Shown here piece by piece: positions 5,734 through 62,651 of a stretch of DNA of 64,000 nt. Below the pieces are notes generated by a model that saw nothing but the letters and a program-made list of their open reading frames with translations, did not search any database and was not told the DNA's origin. The position numbers and the translations under genes were made by a program. The stretch is from assembly GCF_007570865.1 (NCBI RefSeq), contig NZ_VLPS01000003.1:620001-684000 (forward strand), in the 5' to 3' direction. The stretch comes from Atlantibacter subterraneus. GTDB taxonomy: Bacteria; Pseudomonadota; Gammaproteobacteria; Enterobacterales; Enterobacteriaceae. Every line of letters starts with the position of its first letter. The first letter of the stretch is position 1.

Positions 5734-7500
5734 TTAAATCTCCTCCTGACGATGGGCCAGTAGCGCCGCAAAGTGACTGTTGCCGCTGGCGAGCGCGTCG
5801 AAACGCCCCTGTTCCACGATGTGGCCGTTACGCATTACCCAGATTTCATCCCACTCGCTGATGTAATCGAGCTGATGGGTCACCAGCAGGGTGCTTTGGT
5901 GACGTGAGGCGGCATTCAGCGCCTGCATCACTTTCATTTCACTGTGAGCGTCAAGGCTGGCGGCGGGTTCATCCAGCATCAGCAGTTTGCACGGCGTCAG
6001 CAGCGCGCGCGCCACCGCGACACGCTGGGCCTGGCCCACGGAAAGCCCTGCGCCCTGGTCGCCAATTGGCGTGTCGATGCCCTGAGGCAACTGGCCGATA
6101 AACTCGGTCACCGAGGCGTGCTCCAGCGCGCTTTGCAGCGCTTGCTCGCTGGCATCCGGTGCAGACAGCAGCACGTTGTCGCGCAGCGTCGCGGCGGGTA
6201 ACTGCGGGTTCTGCCCAACCCAGCTTAAAACCTCGCGCCAGACCTGCGGATCGAGATCGCGCAGTTCAATATCATTTACCGTCAGCGAGCCTTCATAAGG
6301 CAAAAAGCCCGACAGCACATTCAGCAACGAGCTTTTACCCGCGCCGCTTTGGCCAACTATCGCGACCCGCTTGCCCGCGTCGAGGGTAAAGTTGAGCGGG
6401 CCAGCCAGCGCGCTGCCCTCCGGCGAAAGCACGATGAGATTATGGGCACGCAGCGTAACCGGATCGTTAGTGCTGAGTTTGAAGGTGCCGCGCGTCGCGC
6501 TTTGCAGCGGCGCTTCAAGGAAGGTTTTCAGGCTGTCTGCCGCGCCTACCGCCTGGGCTTTGGCATGGTAGAACGTGCCCAGGTCGCGCAGCGGCTGGAA
6601 AAACTCCGGTGCGAGGATCAACGTTAAAAAGCCAGCGAACAGCGTGACGCCGACGCCGTAATGACCGAAATTGAGTTCGCCAAGGTAGGAGAAGCCGAAG
6701 TAGACCGCGACCAGCGCAATCGACAAAGAAGTAAAAAACTCCAGTACGCCAGAGGATAAAAACGCCAGCCGCAGCACTTCCATGGTGCGACGGCGGAAAT
6801 CCACCGACGCCTCGCGAATGTTTTCGGTTTCCGCCGCGCCGCGATTGAATAACCGTAGCGTTTCCAGGCCGCGCAGGCGGTCAAGGAAATTGCCGCTCAG
6901 ACGCGCCAGCGCGGCGAAGTTGCGGCGGTTAGCGTCGGCGGCACCCATACCGACCATCGCCATAAACATCGGGATTAATGGCGCAGCGCCCAATAAAATC
7001 AGTGCGGCGGCCCAGTTCACCGGGAAAATTACCAGCACGATCAGCAGCGGAACCGCCGCCGCCAGCGCCATCTGCGGCAGATAGCGGGCGTAGTAATCAT
7101 GCATATCGTCAATTTGTTCGAGGATTAATGTCGCCCAGCTGCCGGCAGGTTTGCCGCTGATCCAGGCCGGGCCCGCCTGCTGGAGACGATCCAGCACCAG
7201 ACGTCGCACTTCCCGACGTATATGCACTCCGGCGCGAAAGCCCACCTTTTCTCGCACCCACACCAGCCAGGCGCGCAGAATAAAGATCAGCACCAGCAGG
7301 GCGAACGGCAGCAGCAGCGCCTCTCGCGGGATGTTTTCCATGATCATATGGTTAAGGATGCGGGCCAGGATCCAGGCCTGGGCGATAATCAATAGCCCGG
7401 TCACGACGCCCAGCAGACGCGAAAGATTCAGCCAGCGACGGGAAATTACACTTTGCTGTTTTAACCAGCGGTTCAGTTCTTGTTGGCGGGATTTATTCAT
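5734..7500 (-). CDS. cydD: CydD, subunit of heterodimeric ABC exporter for cytochrome bd assembly
   Basis: CydD is the partner of CydC. At 588 residues it has the E. coli length. Hydrophobic segments fill about residues 25-310, followed by an ATPase domain with Walker A GQSGAGKS at 383-390, signature LSVGQ and Walker B MLDEP. The signature is LSVGQ rather than LSGGQ, a normal trait of CydD. The ATG at 7500 has no strong Shine-Dalgarno sequence immediately upstream. It is transcribed first, directly ahead of cydC. The trxB gene lies upstream on the same strand but is separated by a terminator, so cydDC probably has its own promoter in the short gap at 7501-7566. Confidence 0.96.
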   Translation of the reverse strand: MNKSRQQELNRWLKQQSVISRRWLNLSRLLGVVTGLLIIAQAWILARILNHMIMENIPREALLLPFALLVLIFILRAWLVWVREKVGFRAGVHIRREVRRLVLDRLQQAGPAWISGKPAGSWATLILEQIDDMHDYYARYLPQMALAAAVPLLIVLVIFPVNWAAALILLGAAPLIPMFMAMVGMGAADANRRNFAALARLSGNFLDRLRGLETLRLFNRGAAETENIREASVDFRRRTMEVLRLAFLSSGVLEFFTSLSIALVAVYFGFSYLGELNFGHYGVGVTLFAGFLTLILAPEFFQPLRDLGTFYHAKAQAVGAADSLKTFLEAPLQSATRGTFKLSTNDPVTLRAHNLIVLSPEGSALAGPLNFTLDAGKRVAIVGQSGAGKSSLLNVLSGFLPYEGSLTVNDIELRDLDPQVWREVLSWVGQNPQLPAATLRDNVLLSAPDASEQALQSALEHASVTEFIGQLPQGIDTPIGDQGAGLSVGQAQRVAVARALLTPCKLLMLDEPAASLDAHSEMKVMQALNAASRHQSTLLVTHQLDYISEWDEIWVMRNGHIVEQGRFDALASGNSHFAALLAHRQEEI

Positions 7501-7566
7501 CGAGTTGTAAGCAGGCGAAAGTCCAGTGAACTAAGGGTGTGAAAGCGCGCAGCCATGTTACAACGA

Positions 7567-7599
7567 CAAAAAAAGAAAGGCGACTTATTCAGTCGCCTT
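7567..7599 (-). terminator. Intrinsic terminator of trxB
   Basis: A 9-bp perfect stem (AAGGCGACT at 7577-7585 with AGTCGCCTT at 7591-7599) is followed on the minus strand by TCTTTTTTTG. It starts 15 bases beyond the trxB stop and insulates cydDC from trxB. Confidence 0.93.
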
Positions 7600-7614
7600 A
7601 TTTAACTTGCAGAA

Positions 7615-9148
<1,534 letters not shown>

Positions 9149-58006: not shown

Positions 58007-58179
58007 GCAGGATCACAACATAACACACCGGGCTGGTCGAGCGCATTTCGTGCCGCATGTTATATAAATGTAGTGAAAGGCGTTACACCGCCAGAAAAGA
58101 TAAAGATTCTGCATAGCAACATTTTCGCAACGAGAATAGACTGAAGCACGATACTCTACGGACGATGGATAAGGTTTCT

Positions 58180-60792
58180 ATGACTCAATTGCCACAAGCC
58201 AAATACCGCCACGATTATCGTGCGCCGGATTATTTCATCAGCGACATCGATTTAACCTTTGAGCTGGATGCGCAAAAAACGCGCGTCACGGCGATTAGTC
58301 AGGTGAATCGCCCGCAGGCGTCGGATGCGCCGCTGCGCCTGGATGGCGAATCCTTAACGCTTATTTCTCTTGAGGTGAATGATGAGGCGTGGCCGCATTA
58401 TCGCTTAGAAGATAATGCCCTGATTATTGAGCAACTGCCCGCCCGCTTTACCCTGAAAATCGTTAATGAAATCAGCCCGGCGGCGAACACCGCGCTGGAA
58501 GGGCTGTATCAGTCGGGTGAAGCGCTGTGTACCCAGTGTGAGGCGGAAGGCTTCCGGCACATTACCTGGTATCTGGATCGCCCGGACGTTCTGGCGCGCT
58601 TCACCACCAAAATTATCGCTGATAAAACCAAATACCCCTATCTGCTTTCCAACGGCAACCGCATGGGCCAGGGCGAACTGGAAAACGGTCGTCACTGGGT
58701 CGAGTGGCATGATCCGTTCCCGAAACCGTGCTACCTGTTTGCACTAGTGGCGGGGGATTTCGACGTGTTGCGCGATACGTTCACGACCCGCTCCGGGCGT
58801 GAAGTGGCGCTGGAGCTGTATGTGGATCGCGGCAATGTCGATCGCGCGTCCTGGGCGATGACGTCGCTGAAGAACTCCATGAAGTGGGATGAAACGCGCT
58901 TCGGCCTGGAATATGACTTAGATATCTACATGATCGTCGCCGTTGATTTCTTCAACATGGGCGCGATGGAGAATAAAGGCCTCAATGTCTTTAACTCCAA
59001 ATTCGTGCTGGCGCGTGCCGAAACCGCCACCGATAAAGATTATCTCAATATTGAACGCGTTATCGGTCATGAATATTTCCACAACTGGACCGGCAACCGC
59101 GTGACCTGCCGCGACTGGTTCCAGCTCAGCCTGAAAGAGGGGCTGACGGTGTTCCGCGATCAGGAATTCAGTTCCGATTTGGGTTCCCGCGCGGTTAACC
59201 GCATCAATAATGTGCGCACCATGCGCGCCATGCAGTTTGCGGAAGATGCCAGCCCGATGGCGCACCCGATCCGTCCGGATAAAGTTATTGAGATGAATAA
59301 CTTCTATACCCTGACGGTGTATGAGAAAGGATCGGAAGTGATCCGCATGCTGCACACCCTGCTGGGCGAAGAGAACTTCCAGAAAGGGATGCAGCTCTAT
59401 TTCGAGCGTCATGACGGCAGCGCGGCAACCTGCGATGACTTTGTGCAGGCGATGGAAGATGCGTCAAACGTTGATTTGTCCCATTTCCGCCGTTGGTACA
59501 GCCAGGCCGGTACGCCGGTGGTGAGCGTTCAGGACGACTACAACCCCGAAACCGAGCAATATACCCTGACCATCAGCCAGAGAACGCCGCCCACCGCAGA
59601 GCAAACCGAAAAGCATCCGCTGCATATTCCGTTTGATATCGAACTGTACGATAACGAAGGCAAGGCGATCCCGCTGCAATACAACGGTCATCCGGTGCAT
59701 CACGTACTGAATCTTACCCAGGCCGAACAGACTTTCGTGTTTGATAACGTTTACTTCCAGCCGGTGCCGTCGCTGCTGCGTGAATTCTCCGCGCCGGTGA
59801 AACTGGAATATAAGTGGAGCGATCAGCAGCTCACGTTCCTGATGCGCCACGCCCGCAATGACTTCTCCCGCTGGGATGCAGCGCAGAGCCTGCTGGCGAC
59901 CCATATCAAACTGAACGTCGCCCGCCAGCAGCAGGGCCAGCCGCTGTCGCTGCCGCTGCACGTGGCGGATGCCTTCCGCGCCATCCTGCTGGATGCGCAG
60001 ATCGATCCGGCGCTGGCGGCAGAAATTCTTACTCTGCCATCGCAAAACGAGATTGCCGAGCTGTTTGATGTTATCGATCCGTTAGCGATTGCCGCCGTGC
60101 ATGGCGCGTTAACCCGCACTCTGGCAACGGAGCTGGCTGACGAGTTTTTAGCGGTGTACAACGCCAACAAACTCGACGGTTACCGCATCGAACATGCCGA
60201 TATCGGCAAACGTGCGCTGCGTAATACTTGCCTGCACTATCTGGCATTTGGCGATACGCAGCTGGCCGATAAACTGATCGCCGCTCAGTATCATCAGGCA
60301 GACAATATGACCGACGCAATTGCTGCCCTGTCGGCAGCGGTGGTGGCACAGTTGCCGTGCCGTGAAGCGCTGCTGGCGGAGTATGACGAGAAATGGCATC
60401 AGGACGGGCTGGTGATGGATAAGTGGCTGATGCTGCAGGCTATCAGCCCGGCGCAAGACGTCCTTGCTACGGTGCGCTCGTTGCTCAATCACCGCTCGTT
60501 CAGCATGAGTAACCCGAACCGCATCCGCGCGCTGATTGGTGCGTTCGCTATGCATAACCCGCTGGCATTCCATGCGGCGGACGGCAGCGGCTATCAGTTT
60601 ATGGTAGAAATGCTCACCGAGTTGAACAGCCGTAACCCGCAGGTAGCGTCACGCCTGATCGAACCGCTGATTCGCCTGAAGCGCTACGATGAAAATCGCC
60701 AGCAGCTGATGCGTGCGGCGCTTGAACAGCTTAAAGCGCTGCCCAATCTCTCCGGCGATTTGTTCGAGAAAATCACCAAGGCGCTTGCCTGA
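58180..60792 (+). CDS. pepN: Aminopeptidase N
   Basis: PepN is the main broad-specificity zinc aminopeptidase of the cytoplasm (M1 family). I start at the ATG at 58180 (MTQLPQAKYRHDYRAP), with AAGG seven bases upstream, giving 870 residues as in E. coli; an ATG at 58165 would add five residues. The substrate-binding GAMEN motif is around 261-265, and the zinc motif HEYFH is at 297-301 with the third ligand Glu about 19 residues later (LKEGLTV). The C-terminal alpha-helical domain is complete. It faces ssuE across a strong terminator; in E. coli ssuB is the neighbour. Confidence 0.98.
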   Translation: MTQLPQAKYRHDYRAPDYFISDIDLTFELDAQKTRVTAISQVNRPQASDAPLRLDGESLTLISLEVNDEAWPHYRLEDNALIIEQLPARFTLKIVNEISPAANTALEGLYQSGEALCTQCEAEGFRHITWYLDRPDVLARFTTKIIADKTKYPYLLSNGNRMGQGELENGRHWVEWHDPFPKPCYLFALVAGDFDVLRDTFTTRSGREVALELYVDRGNVDRASWAMTSLKNSMKWDETRFGLEYDLDIYMIVAVDFFNMGAMENKGLNVFNSKFVLARAETATDKDYLNIERVIGHEYFHNWTGNRVTCRDWFQLSLKEGLTVFRDQEFSSDLGSRAVNRINNVRTMRAMQFAEDASPMAHPIRPDKVIEMNNFYTLTVYEKGSEVIRMLHTLLGEENFQKGMQLYFERHDGSAATCDDFVQAMEDASNVDLSHFRRWYSQAGTPVVSVQDDYNPETEQYTLTISQRTPPTAEQTEKHPLHIPFDIELYDNEGKAIPLQYNGHPVHHVLNLTQAEQTFVFDNVYFQPVPSLLREFSAPVKLEYKWSDQQLTFLMRHARNDFSRWDAAQSLLATHIKLNVARQQQGQPLSLPLHVADAFRAILLDAQIDPALAAEILTLPSQNEIAELFDVIDPLAIAAVHGALTRTLATELADEFLAVYNANKLDGYRIEHADIGKRALRNTCLHYLAFGDTQLADKLIAAQYHQADNMTDAIAALSAAVVAQLPCREALLAEYDEKWHQDGLVMDKWLMLQAISPAQDVLATVRSLLNHRSFSMSNPNRIRALIGAFAMHNPLAFHAADGSGYQFMVEMLTELNSRNPQVASRLIEPLIRLKRYDENRQQLMRAALEQLKALPNLSGDLFEKITKALA

Positions 60793-60796
60793 TAAC

Positions 60797-60827
60797 AAAA
60801 CGCCCTTCCAGCTGGAAGGGCGTTTTT
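60797..60827. terminator. Bidirectional terminator between pepN and ssuE
   Basis: AAAACGCCCTTCC (60797-60809) pairs with GGAAGGGCGTTTT (60814-60826), loop AGCT, with U-tracts possible both ways. It starts five bases after the pepN stop and touches the ssuE stop, leaving no room for further ssu genes. Confidence 0.95.
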
Positions 60828-60829
60828 CG

Positions 60830-61405
60830 TTATGCCGACAGCGAGTTCTCTGGCCATTTTAACGCCAGGTGAGAGGTGTCGTGACGGTGTAACGCCTGCC
60901 AGAACGTATCCAGCGCGTCGTCGAGACGATGCTGCAAATTCGCGCTAAACACCGGCTTATGTTGATAATCCAGCACCTGACTGTCATCGGCATAAACGCC
61001 GTGCAGGATCTCCTGCGCTTTCAGCGCGTTTAATACCGGTTTCAGGGCGTAATCCACCGCCAGCAGATGCGCTACGCTGCCGCCCGTTGCCAGCGGTAAC
61101 ACCACTTTTTTCTCCAGCGCCCGTTCGGGCAATAAATCCAGCAGCGTTTTTAACGCGCCCGCAAAGGAGGCCTTATAAACCGGCGTCGCCACGATCAGCC
61201 CGTCCGCCTCCGCCAGCTGCGCACTAAAAGTTTTTAACGCCGGGCTGTCGAAGCGGGCATAGATAAGGTCTTCTGGCGCAAAATTTTGCAGATGCCAGTG
61301 ATAGACCTCCACATCCTGTGCGCTAAGCCGATCGCGGGCATATTCTAACAGCGCGCTGGAGCGGGAAGGAAAGCGAGGGCTACCGGCCAGGGTGATAATG
61401 CGCAT
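60830..61405 (-). CDS. ssuE: SsuE, NADPH-dependent FMN reductase (orphan)
   Basis: SsuE supplies reduced FMN to the alkanesulfonate monooxygenase SsuD for sulfur scavenging. The ATG at 61405, with AGGAG five bases upstream, gives 191 residues; a GTG one codon earlier is less well placed. The FMN/flavodoxin-like motifs [11 protein letters not shown] (about 5-15), [17 protein letters not shown] and [12 protein letters not shown] match E. coli SsuE strongly. The last 15 or so residues diverge ([14 protein letters not shown]). In E. coli ssuADCB follow in one operon; here a terminator and pepN follow at once, so the partner oxygenase and transporter are not in this window. It may serve another flavin-dependent oxygenase or an ssu locus elsewhere. 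Confidence 0.93.
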
Positions 61406-61541
61406 CACAGCTCCTTATAACCAATGGTTTTCAAGTTGATAACATTAATAACAATTGGCCCAGTGTCGCAGAGGTGATGCCCTGAGCTAACTGATTTTTC
61501 CGTCGGAGCAATGCCGAATTTCGCATAAATCACCTTAATGA

Positions 61542-61557
61542 GCGGAAACGGTTGCTT
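61542..61557 (+). promoter_or_regulatory. PurR box of pyrD
   Basis: GCGGAAACGGTTGCTT matches the PurR consensus ANGCAANCGNTTNCNT at 9 of 11 fixed positions. It lies 17 bases upstream of the pyrD -35 region. PurR repression of pyrD is established in E. coli. Confidence 0.7.
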
Positions 61558-61573
61558 TATTGCCATAAGTCAA

Positions 61574-61602
61574 TTCACTTTGTGAGCGCATTCACGGATA
61601 AT
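61574..61602 (+). promoter_or_regulatory. pyrD promoter
   Basis: TTCACT at 61574-61579 and GATAAT at 61597-61602 are 17 bases apart. The expected start falls in the GCGCCCCGG run at 61604-61612, as in enteric pyrC and pyrD promoters, where CTP/GTP levels shift the first transcribed base. Confidence 0.7.
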
Positions 61603-61607
61603 AGCGC

Positions 61608-61625
61608 CCCGGTCTGCATACCGGG
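61608..61625 (+). promoter_or_regulatory. pyrD leader hairpin for pyrimidine control
   Basis: CCCGGT (61608-61613) pairs with ACCGGG (61620-61625) around a 6-base loop, six bases before AGGAG. In E. coli and Salmonella, transcripts that start at the upstream C (high CTP) contain the whole hairpin and are poorly translated; those that start further down lose its left arm. Confidence 0.65.
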
Positions 61626-61640
61626 AATCCAGGAGAGTTC

Positions 61641-62651
61641 ATGTACTACCCCTTCGTTCGTAAAGCCCTTTTCCAGCTCGATCCAGAGCGCGCTCATGAA
61701 ATGACATTCCAGCAACTGCGCCGTATTACCGGCACGCCGTTTGAGCGCCTGGTGCGCCAGCGTGTACCGGAAAAACCGGTCTCCTGCATGGGATTGACGT
61801 TTAAAAACCCGTTGGGTCTGGCGGCAGGTCTGGATAAAAACGGCGAATGCATCGATGCGCTTGGCGCGATGGGTTTTGGATCGATCGAGATCGGCACCGT
61901 AACGCCGCGCCCGCAGCCGGGCAACGACAAGCCGAGGATCTTCCGGCTGGTAGAAGCCGAAGGGTTGATCAACCGTATGGGCTTCAACAATCTGGGCGTC
62001 GACAACCTGGTTGAGAACGTCAAGAAAGCCCATTTTGACGGCGTGCTGGGGATTAATATCGGCAAAAATAAAGACACCCCGGTAGAGCAGGGGAAAGACG
62101 ACTACCTGATCTGTATGGATAAAGTGTATGCGTATGCCGGATATATCGCGATCAATATCTCCTCGCCGAATACCCCGGGTTTACGCTCGCTGCAATATGG
62201 CGAAGCGCTTGACGATCTTTTAAGCGCGATAAAAAATAAGCAACAAGAACTGCAAAAACAACATCATAAATATGTTCCTGTGGCGGTGAAGATCGCGCCG
62301 GATCTTTCGCTGGAAGAATTGATCCAGGTTGCCGACAGTTTAGTTCGCCATAATATTGATGGGGTTATCGCCACCAATACCACGCTCGACAGATCGCTGG
62401 TTGAAGGAATGAAACACAGCCAGGAAATGGGTGGGTTAAGCGGCCGGCCACTGCAATTAAAAAGTACCGAAATTATTCGCCTGTTATCTCAGGAATTAAA
62501 TGGCCGGTTGCCAATTATTGGCGTCGGTGGGATTGATTCCCTGATGGCGGCGCGTGAGAAGATGGCGGCAGGCGCAACGCTGATTCAAATTTATTCCGGT
62601 TTTATTTTTAAAGGCCCGCCGCTGATTAAAGAAATCGTAACCCATATCTAA
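61641..62651 (+). CDS. pyrD: Dihydroorotate dehydrogenase (quinone), class 2
   Basis: PyrD oxidises dihydroorotate to orotate at the inner membrane, passing electrons to ubiquinone. It has 336 residues. The N-terminal helical extension (about 1-40) that binds quinone marks class 2. FMN contacts AAGLDKNGE and [12 protein letters not shown] are intact, and the catalytic Ser is Ser175 in [18 protein letters not shown] precedes the ATG. Upstream elements for PurR and pyrimidine control are annotated separately. Confidence 0.98.

Follow-up and report, generated by a model that had tools for sequence, protein, structure and literature searches.

The lone ssuE gene of Atlantibacter subterraneus is likely to have been retained as the FMNH2 supplier of a monooxygenase encoded elsewhere in the genome, here called mox, whose operon appears to have replaced ssuADCB around the resident reductase. 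A two-component system has probably been taken apart and its reductase re-partnered. That reductases of this family serve several oxygenases is already known; the proposed swap of the cassette is what is new and testable. The gene lies in a stretch of 64,000 nucleotides (the window) belonging to a genome of 4.6 Mb in 18 contigs with a completeness of 100 (G000), and the features discussed below are collected in Table 1.

Table 1. Features of the pepN-ssuE-pyrD locus (window positions) and of the mox operon (position given as genome and contig)
Feature	Position	Strand	Remarks and basis
pepN, convergent neighbour	58165..60792	+	ORF as listed, true start may be later; tblastn in relatives
Hairpin with T-run on both strands, likely shared pepN/ssuE terminator	60797..60827	.	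Sequence, folding
Site of missing ssuADCB	60828..60832	.	Gene maps of relatives; position approximate
ssuE, NADPH-dependent FMN reductase (predicted)	60830..61405	-	191 aa, intact frame; family scores
ssuE-pyrD intergenic region with conserved ssuE upstream blocks	61406..61640	.	Alignment of 21 loci
pyrD, divergent neighbour	61641..62651	+	ORF list; tblastn to same place in relatives
mox operon (monooxygenase, permease, binding protein, ATPase)	G000:C7 571149-575139		Four genes
mox, NtaA/DmoA-family monooxygenase (predicted)	G000:C7 573793-575139		First gene, followed by permease, binding protein and ATPase

The ssuE reading frame runs from an ATG at 61405-61403 to a stop codon at 60832-60830, and its product exceeds the family cut-offs of both PRK10569 (332.6 bits, cut-off 225) and TIGR03567 (240 bits, cut-off 164.05). 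E. coli SsuE (4PTY) aligns to residues 1-177 with an E value of 4e-96 (phmmer). An earlier note on this DNA had described the gene as intact and strongly conserved, and this is borne out by the family scores and by a comparison of 67 SsuE proteins (a set that excludes four Erwinia/Pantoea-like intact loci as well as partial and lone ones, and includes the contig-cut L052), in which 74 core columns are invariant and none of them is altered in the window protein. One of these columns holds the tyrosine at residue 119, counted from Met, which we take to be the pi-helix tyrosine known in literature numbering as Tyr118 and presumed to have the role ascribed to that residue. The named SsuE proteins nearest to that of the window, among the best 80 of 291 relatives, belong to Atlantibacter sp. 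RC6 (99%) and A. hermannii (98%). An SsuE of 89% identity is carried by a record entitled "Citrobacter freundii M-21", which clusters with Atlantibacter on a tree of PepN and PyrD. The titles of this record (L016) and of "Chryseobacterium sp. 18061" (L050) look wrong or mixed: despite them, the DNA of the former is Atlantibacter-like and that of the latter is from Enterobacteriaceae.

Between pepN and the ssuE stop codon lies a perfect palindrome (AAAACGCCCTTCC-AGCT-GGAAGGGCGTTTT followed by T), its T-run separated from the stop codon by two bases. The earlier note had proposed a bidirectional terminator touching ssuE, with pepN directly beyond. The position of pepN was as described, and the hairpin does fold on either strand (plus strand, 43 bases, -22.8 kcal/mol, z -7.0; minus strand, 51 bases, -24.7 kcal/mol, z -5.4), but a scan with a generic terminator pattern does not include it in its list. 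A hairpin is found at the corresponding place in L015, L016 and L182, and the structure is likely to be a shared terminator of pepN and ssuE. Franconibacter (L058), whose ssu genes are intact, has the 3' end of ssuB near a pepN-side hairpin just as Atlantibacter has ssuE, suggesting that the convergent terminator is probably an old one and that ssuE now occupies the former position of ssuB. On the other side of the gene, an alignment of 21 loci, in which two g101 loci align poorly, reveals conserved upstream blocks (AATTGTTAT..ATGTTA and GGTTATAAGGAG).

The corresponding interval of E. coli R32_14_1F contains ssuB, ssuC, ssuD and ssuA between pepN and ssuE. Their absence from this place in the window, as first noticed from the sequence, is confirmed by the gene maps. 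The state is common to the genus: ssuE without ssuADCB was read in five of five Atlantibacter genomes readable at the locus (G000, G059, G178, G852, and G917). A scan of named genomes, restricted to the best 80 of 291 SsuE relatives, found pepN, ssuEADCB and pyrD together in 69, and pepN, ssuE and pyrD without ssuADCB in six, three of which are Atlantibacter including the mislabelled record; two further loci were partial (EACB and ECB) and three were cut by a contig end. Lineages on either side of the tree, among them Erwinia and Pantoea, have intact ssuEADCB at this position (the 101-row tree excluded ten duplicates and loci without both flanks). SsuE identity to the window protein tracks PepN identity (Spearman 0.74, 69 loci), as would be expected for vertical inheritance.

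A second tree, of 74 genomes, comprised 50 with ssuD at the locus and 24 without it. It was drawn from 84 loci, namely the 75 genomes with SsuE among 197 sampled, G103 (weak SsuE) and eight added for having mox, from which G101, G106, G004, G134, G120, G147, G187, G071, G093, and G011 were dropped. On this tree, ssuD was lost from the locus with ssuE kept in at least 11 changes, eight of them forced by well supported branches; because genomes were chosen for carrying ssuE, the count is one of losses with ssuE kept and not of losses overall. Stepwise losses are also seen (ECB in G002, G081, and G082; EACB in G017 and G155). The sequence record taken together thus shows an ancestral locus, as reconstructed from gene order and the tree, with ssuEADCB between pepN and pyrD, from which the Atlantibacter lineage deleted ssuADCB while retaining ssuE, its upstream region and the terminator. 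Of the two histories offered in the earlier note, an old deletion is therefore preferred to an insertion in the E. coli lineage, since the intact operon is present on both sides of the tree; the comparison of the pepN-pyrD junction across genera that it had proposed gave the intact operon as ancestral, and a lone ancestral locus accompanied by separate complete operons was not what was found, most relatives being complete at this very place. That E. coli and others gained ssuADCB beside an ancestral lone ssuE is hardly credible: the lone state does occur in several genera and the change counts by themselves cannot separate gain from loss, but the shared site in Erwinia, Pantoea and the rest, together with the existence of partial states, argues against it. 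In L073, L088/L106, L109, L113, L212, and L218 the operon is partial: ssuE, ssuC and ssuB are retained, ssuD is missing, and ssuA may be present or absent; such operons are likely intermediates of loss. In G124 (L102, approximately 6535-7676) ssuD is split into two overlapping frames in an otherwise complete ssuEADCB.

The last 15 or so residues of SsuE differ from those of E. coli, as had been pointed out, yet the tail is variable among intact operons too. Across 15 intact-operon loci (105 pairs), mean identity was 0.39 in the tail and 0.83 in the core. The Atlantibacter tail is more divergent still (0.11 to the tails of those 15 loci). As a sign of fusion with the pepN side the difference is weak, and this idea was not retained: tails vary widely and those of the lone SsuE proteins of Pseudocitrobacter and g135 resemble intact-operon ones, so that no fusion can be read from them. 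The Atlantibacter tail is unusual, and an origin in the pepN side cannot be traced.

Lone ssuE in Atlantibacter is still under purifying selection. In three Atlantibacter pairs, dN was 0.064-0.074 and dS 0.96-1.29, giving dN/dS of 0.057-0.067 (about 0.06), which lies inside the range of five intact-operon pairs (0.025-0.088); values were obtained for 13 of 16 planned pairs. The same Atlantibacter pairs gave 0.023-0.033 for pyrD and pepN, about half the ssuE value. The number of altered invariant columns, zero in the window protein, was one in L016 and 13 in G917. The latter (L190/L182) is an Atlantibacter genome assembled as a single contig, in which the frames of ssuE and of the mox gene are both broken; this may reflect sequencing error or real decay. 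Outside the genus, the lone SsuE of G030, whose genome has neither SsuD nor an NtaA-type protein, is altered at nine of 74 invariant columns, and a relative of SsuE at the pepN-pyrD place in G103 (L103 8334-8837; 51% identity, below the SsuE cut-off) is altered at 30 of 74, the pi-helix tyrosine among them, in a genome that has NtaA-type proteins. The changes in G030 suit a reductase drifting after the loss of its partner; those in G103 are not so easily accommodated. That the window ssuE is a relic, the rest of the operon having been lost first and ssuE being as yet undecayed, is very improbable. Such a course would agree with the stepwise losses, with a dN/dS about twice that of pyrD and pepN and with the changed N-terminal stretch of ssuE in G917, which may itself be sequencing error; it is opposed by ratios inside the intact-operon range at a dS of about 1, by the unaltered invariant columns and conserved upstream blocks, and by the retention of ssuE in the partial losses that were read, though those loci were chosen for carrying ssuE. 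Lone ssuE is not an artefact, and it is probably not a relic.

A genome-wide search with PF00296, the family containing SsuD, returned two proteins from G000, a YhbW-like one (PRK10508) and the NtaA/DmoA-family mox. The latter scores 582.3 bits against TIGR03860 (NtaA/DmoA; cut-off 279.7) and 63.6 bits against the SsuD model TIGR03565 (cut-off 518.2), and is thus not SsuD; neither of the two matches is SsuD, and TIGR03565 at 1e-60 had no match in G000, G059, and G178. Each of the five Atlantibacter genomes has two PF00296 proteins (threshold 0.001 in three, 1e-20 in G852 and G917). Among reductases, no PF01613 flavin reductase was detected in G000, which has seven PF03358 proteins besides SsuE: ArsH, WrbA, KefF, and KefG exceed their cut-offs, two others resemble an azoreductase and KefF but score below the cut-offs, and the last has no family match at 1e-20. 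SsuE is the only SsuE-type reductase found in the genome. With no SsuD, and with SsuE as the sole reductase of its type found, the NtaA-type protein is the obvious candidate partner. The earlier note had suggested that a retained reductase would point either to an ssu cluster elsewhere or to a new partner oxygenase, and had recommended a genome search for ssuD and other FMNH2-dependent monooxygenases: the search, with two PF00296 proteins in each of five genomes and no SsuD in G000, speaks against the former, while mox, the only PF00296 member besides the YhbW-like protein, is a plausible candidate for the latter.

The genes that follow mox resemble those of a sulfonate transporter. Its binding protein has the SsuA family TIGR01728 as best match (121 bits, below the cut-off of 163.5), and SaoP/SsuC and SaoA/SsuB are the closest models of the permease and ATPase, likewise below cut-offs. 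The operon probably imports and cleaves an organosulfur compound, the class of substrate being a guess from family resemblance. The five Atlantibacter genomes have the operon at one common site, flanked by what we take to be treA and an FTR1-like gene, and these flanks are not beside the operon in the other three genera that carry it. With SsuE, MsuE and two PF01613-type reductases as queries, tblastn detected no such gene in a stretch of 10.7-19 kb spanning each of the 15 enterobacterial mox operons. The operon was detected at 1e-120 in one of 247 sampled genomes of Enterobacterales (the window's own) and at 1e-110 in eight of 369 in the class, the other seven at 47-55% identity; 5,426 E. coli genomes contained no place covering 80% of it. 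Relatives with 74-81% identity and the same four-gene order are plasmid-borne in Rhizobium, Ensifer, Shinella, Paracoccus, and Sinorhizobium (order read in ten loci, all ten matching, out of 610 records matching at 1e-80). In a tree that included ten of the 610 plasmid records, enterobacterial mox formed one clade (100/99) among alphaproteobacterial copies.

Of these ten alphaproteobacterial loci, two (S. meliloti and S. medicae) have msuE directly upstream of the operon. A PF01613-type reductase is present in another two, immediately before the operon in Shinella and approximately 1.6 kb away in Rhizobium SL42, and in the remaining six no reductase of the tested kinds was found near it. The S. 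meliloti MsuE is over the TIGR03566 cut-off and is 29% identical to the window SsuE; the S. medicae MsuE is 91% identical to that of S. meliloti. Thus mox does occur in nature together with a reductase of the SsuE/MsuE type, though with another kind as well. We infer that the enterobacterial operon was acquired horizontally, from the mox tree and the absence of mox from 376 of 391 genomes at 1e-150; no compositional sign of transfer was found, GC and GC3 being like those of the flanks, so composition shows nothing on this point. The divergence of mox among the four genera (81-84%) resembles that of pepN, so that one old gain followed by many losses could also account for its presence in them. 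A regulator site shared by ssuE and the mox operon was considered, and a conserved TTGTTAT/TGTTAT block does precede both, but it is too short to claim. A second SsuD, 61-64% identical to that of E. coli, is found repeatedly, in L153, L158, L159, L160, and L165, near an NtaA-type gene (34% identical to mox), with a divergent SsuA-like gene nearby and no SsuE homologue found in the stretch.

In its distribution, mox co-occurs with lone ssuE. A monooxygenase of at least 80% identity was found in 15 of 391 Enterobacteriaceae genomes, in four genera, and each of the 15 has SsuE over cut-off and lacks ssuADCB at the ssuE locus (the pepN side of G101 lies beyond its contig). By comparison, SsuE is present in 75 of the 197 sampled genomes, with ssuD within 4 kb in 53 of the 75, once split. 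On the 74-genome tree, where eight of the 15 mox genomes had been placed because of having mox, mox was present in 14 genomes that had lost ssuD from the locus and in none of the 50 that had kept it, and each of the three changes it requires falls within a clade lacking ssuD there. The chance that three random gains would all fall in such clades was 0.005-0.012, a crude estimate made after the fact, or about 0.03-0.05 without Atlantibacter, which had led to the operon. Few events underlie the association, mox having originated three times on the tree, and a sign test on independent pairs gave 0.25, three pairs being unable to reach 0.05.

Outside Atlantibacter, SsuE may have other partners. 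In seven genomes of g10 and g135 a further protein scores like SsuD against PF00296; it exceeds the SsuD cut-off in G009, G151, and G135, the three for which this was tested, and has an internal stop in G892; G932 has 13 PF00296 proteins. A wider link between lone ssuE and any NtaA-type protein was examined and is not relied on. Such a protein is present in 20 of 22 genomes whose ssuE is unlinked to ssuD and, on the tree, in 23 of 24 that had lost ssuD versus 31 of 50 that had kept it, mox being counted as NtaA-type, but the pair test was not significant (median p 0.375).

A mechanism can be proposed in which an operon akin to that of rhizobial plasmids, having no reductase gene of its own, takes over from ssuADCB. 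SsuE would still reduce FMN using NADPH, and the FMNH2 would be delivered in trans to the mox monooxygenase; the SsuABC-like transporter would bring in an organosulfur compound that mox would cleave or oxygenate. The MsuE of Acinetobacter baylyi, which drives eight named monooxygenases (PMC13352529), offers a precedent for one reductase feeding many oxygenases. It is improbable, by comparison, that SsuE was retained for FMN reduction in general or to serve the YhbW-like protein. The latter is the only other PF00296 member in Atlantibacter, and in G030 SsuE is accompanied by just one PF00296 protein, which has the size of YhbW. That same SsuE, however, is altered at invariant columns that are untouched in the window protein, and G175 has a YhbW-size PF00296 protein (337-residue frame, 133.9 bits) yet no SsuE over cut-off. 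Moreover, an SsuD over cut-off or an NtaA-type protein accompanies SsuE in 73 of 75 genomes versus five of 122 without SsuE among the 197 sampled, a contrast inflated by the many very small genomes among the 122.

An indirect link between mox and ssuE is also rather unlikely. The mox operon and ssuADCB would then both serve organosulfur uptake, the former drawing its FMNH2 from another reductase such as Fre and arriving or surviving in lineages that have lost the latter. The alphaproteobacterial loci lend this some support, in that most have no tested reductase kind nearby and some have the PF01613 type, but the conservation of lone ssuE in Atlantibacter would be left unexplained. Supply of FMNH2 from SsuE to mox is the reading we favor. 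A broader proposal, to which we would give slightly less than even weight, is that SsuE is a fixed chromosomal hub for FMNH2 in Enterobacteriaceae while the oxygenase and transporter form an exchangeable cassette, the mox operon and native ssuADCB being mutually exclusive and alternating on the same reductase. If this is true, gaining one cassette would permit deletion of the other, with ssuE staying in place.

The arrangement can be compared with described systems. With E. coli ssuEADCB, Atlantibacter shares an orthologous SsuE, its chromosomal place and a conserved upstream region, but it has no SsuA, SsuD, SsuC or SsuB at the locus and no SsuD was found in its genome. The pSymB cluster of Sinorhizobium (L235 and L238) has the same four genes in the same order and a monooxygenase 74-75% identical, but msuE is directly upstream there and none is near the enterobacterial copies. 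In Pseudomonas and Acinetobacter, MsuE likewise represents one SsuE/MsuE-type FMN reductase for several monooxygenases; MsuE was assayed there, while the link in Atlantibacter is deduced and involves an SsuE left after a deletion (PMC13352529). The ssu2 genes of Xanthomonas citri also combine an NTA-type monooxygenase with an SsuABC-like transporter but have their own linked reductase (PMC4501297). No description of a lone ssuE in Atlantibacter was found in titles and abstract openings of the open-licence PMC papers retrieved. Here a sulfonate monooxygenase has been lost repeatedly and its reductase retained, and an apparent leftover becomes a testable prediction, namely that the reductase known to work with SsuD may supply a monooxygenase from a different subfamily. 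A lone ssuE would then point to a flavin monooxygenase encoded elsewhere along with a transporter of its own; for Atlantibacter a candidate partner operon can be named, and its substrate can be searched for by growth on organosulfur compounds.

Two further arrangements of the locus were seen. In four g10 loci (L104, L105, L183, and L023, the last being Pseudocitrobacter vendiensis), approximately 7.2 kb of additional DNA separates ssuE from pyrD, so that the usual distance between these genes is lost. In Klebsiella sp. BIGb0407 (L078/L185), ssuE and pepN are set apart by approximately 6.8 kb of other DNA, where relatives have ssuADCB.
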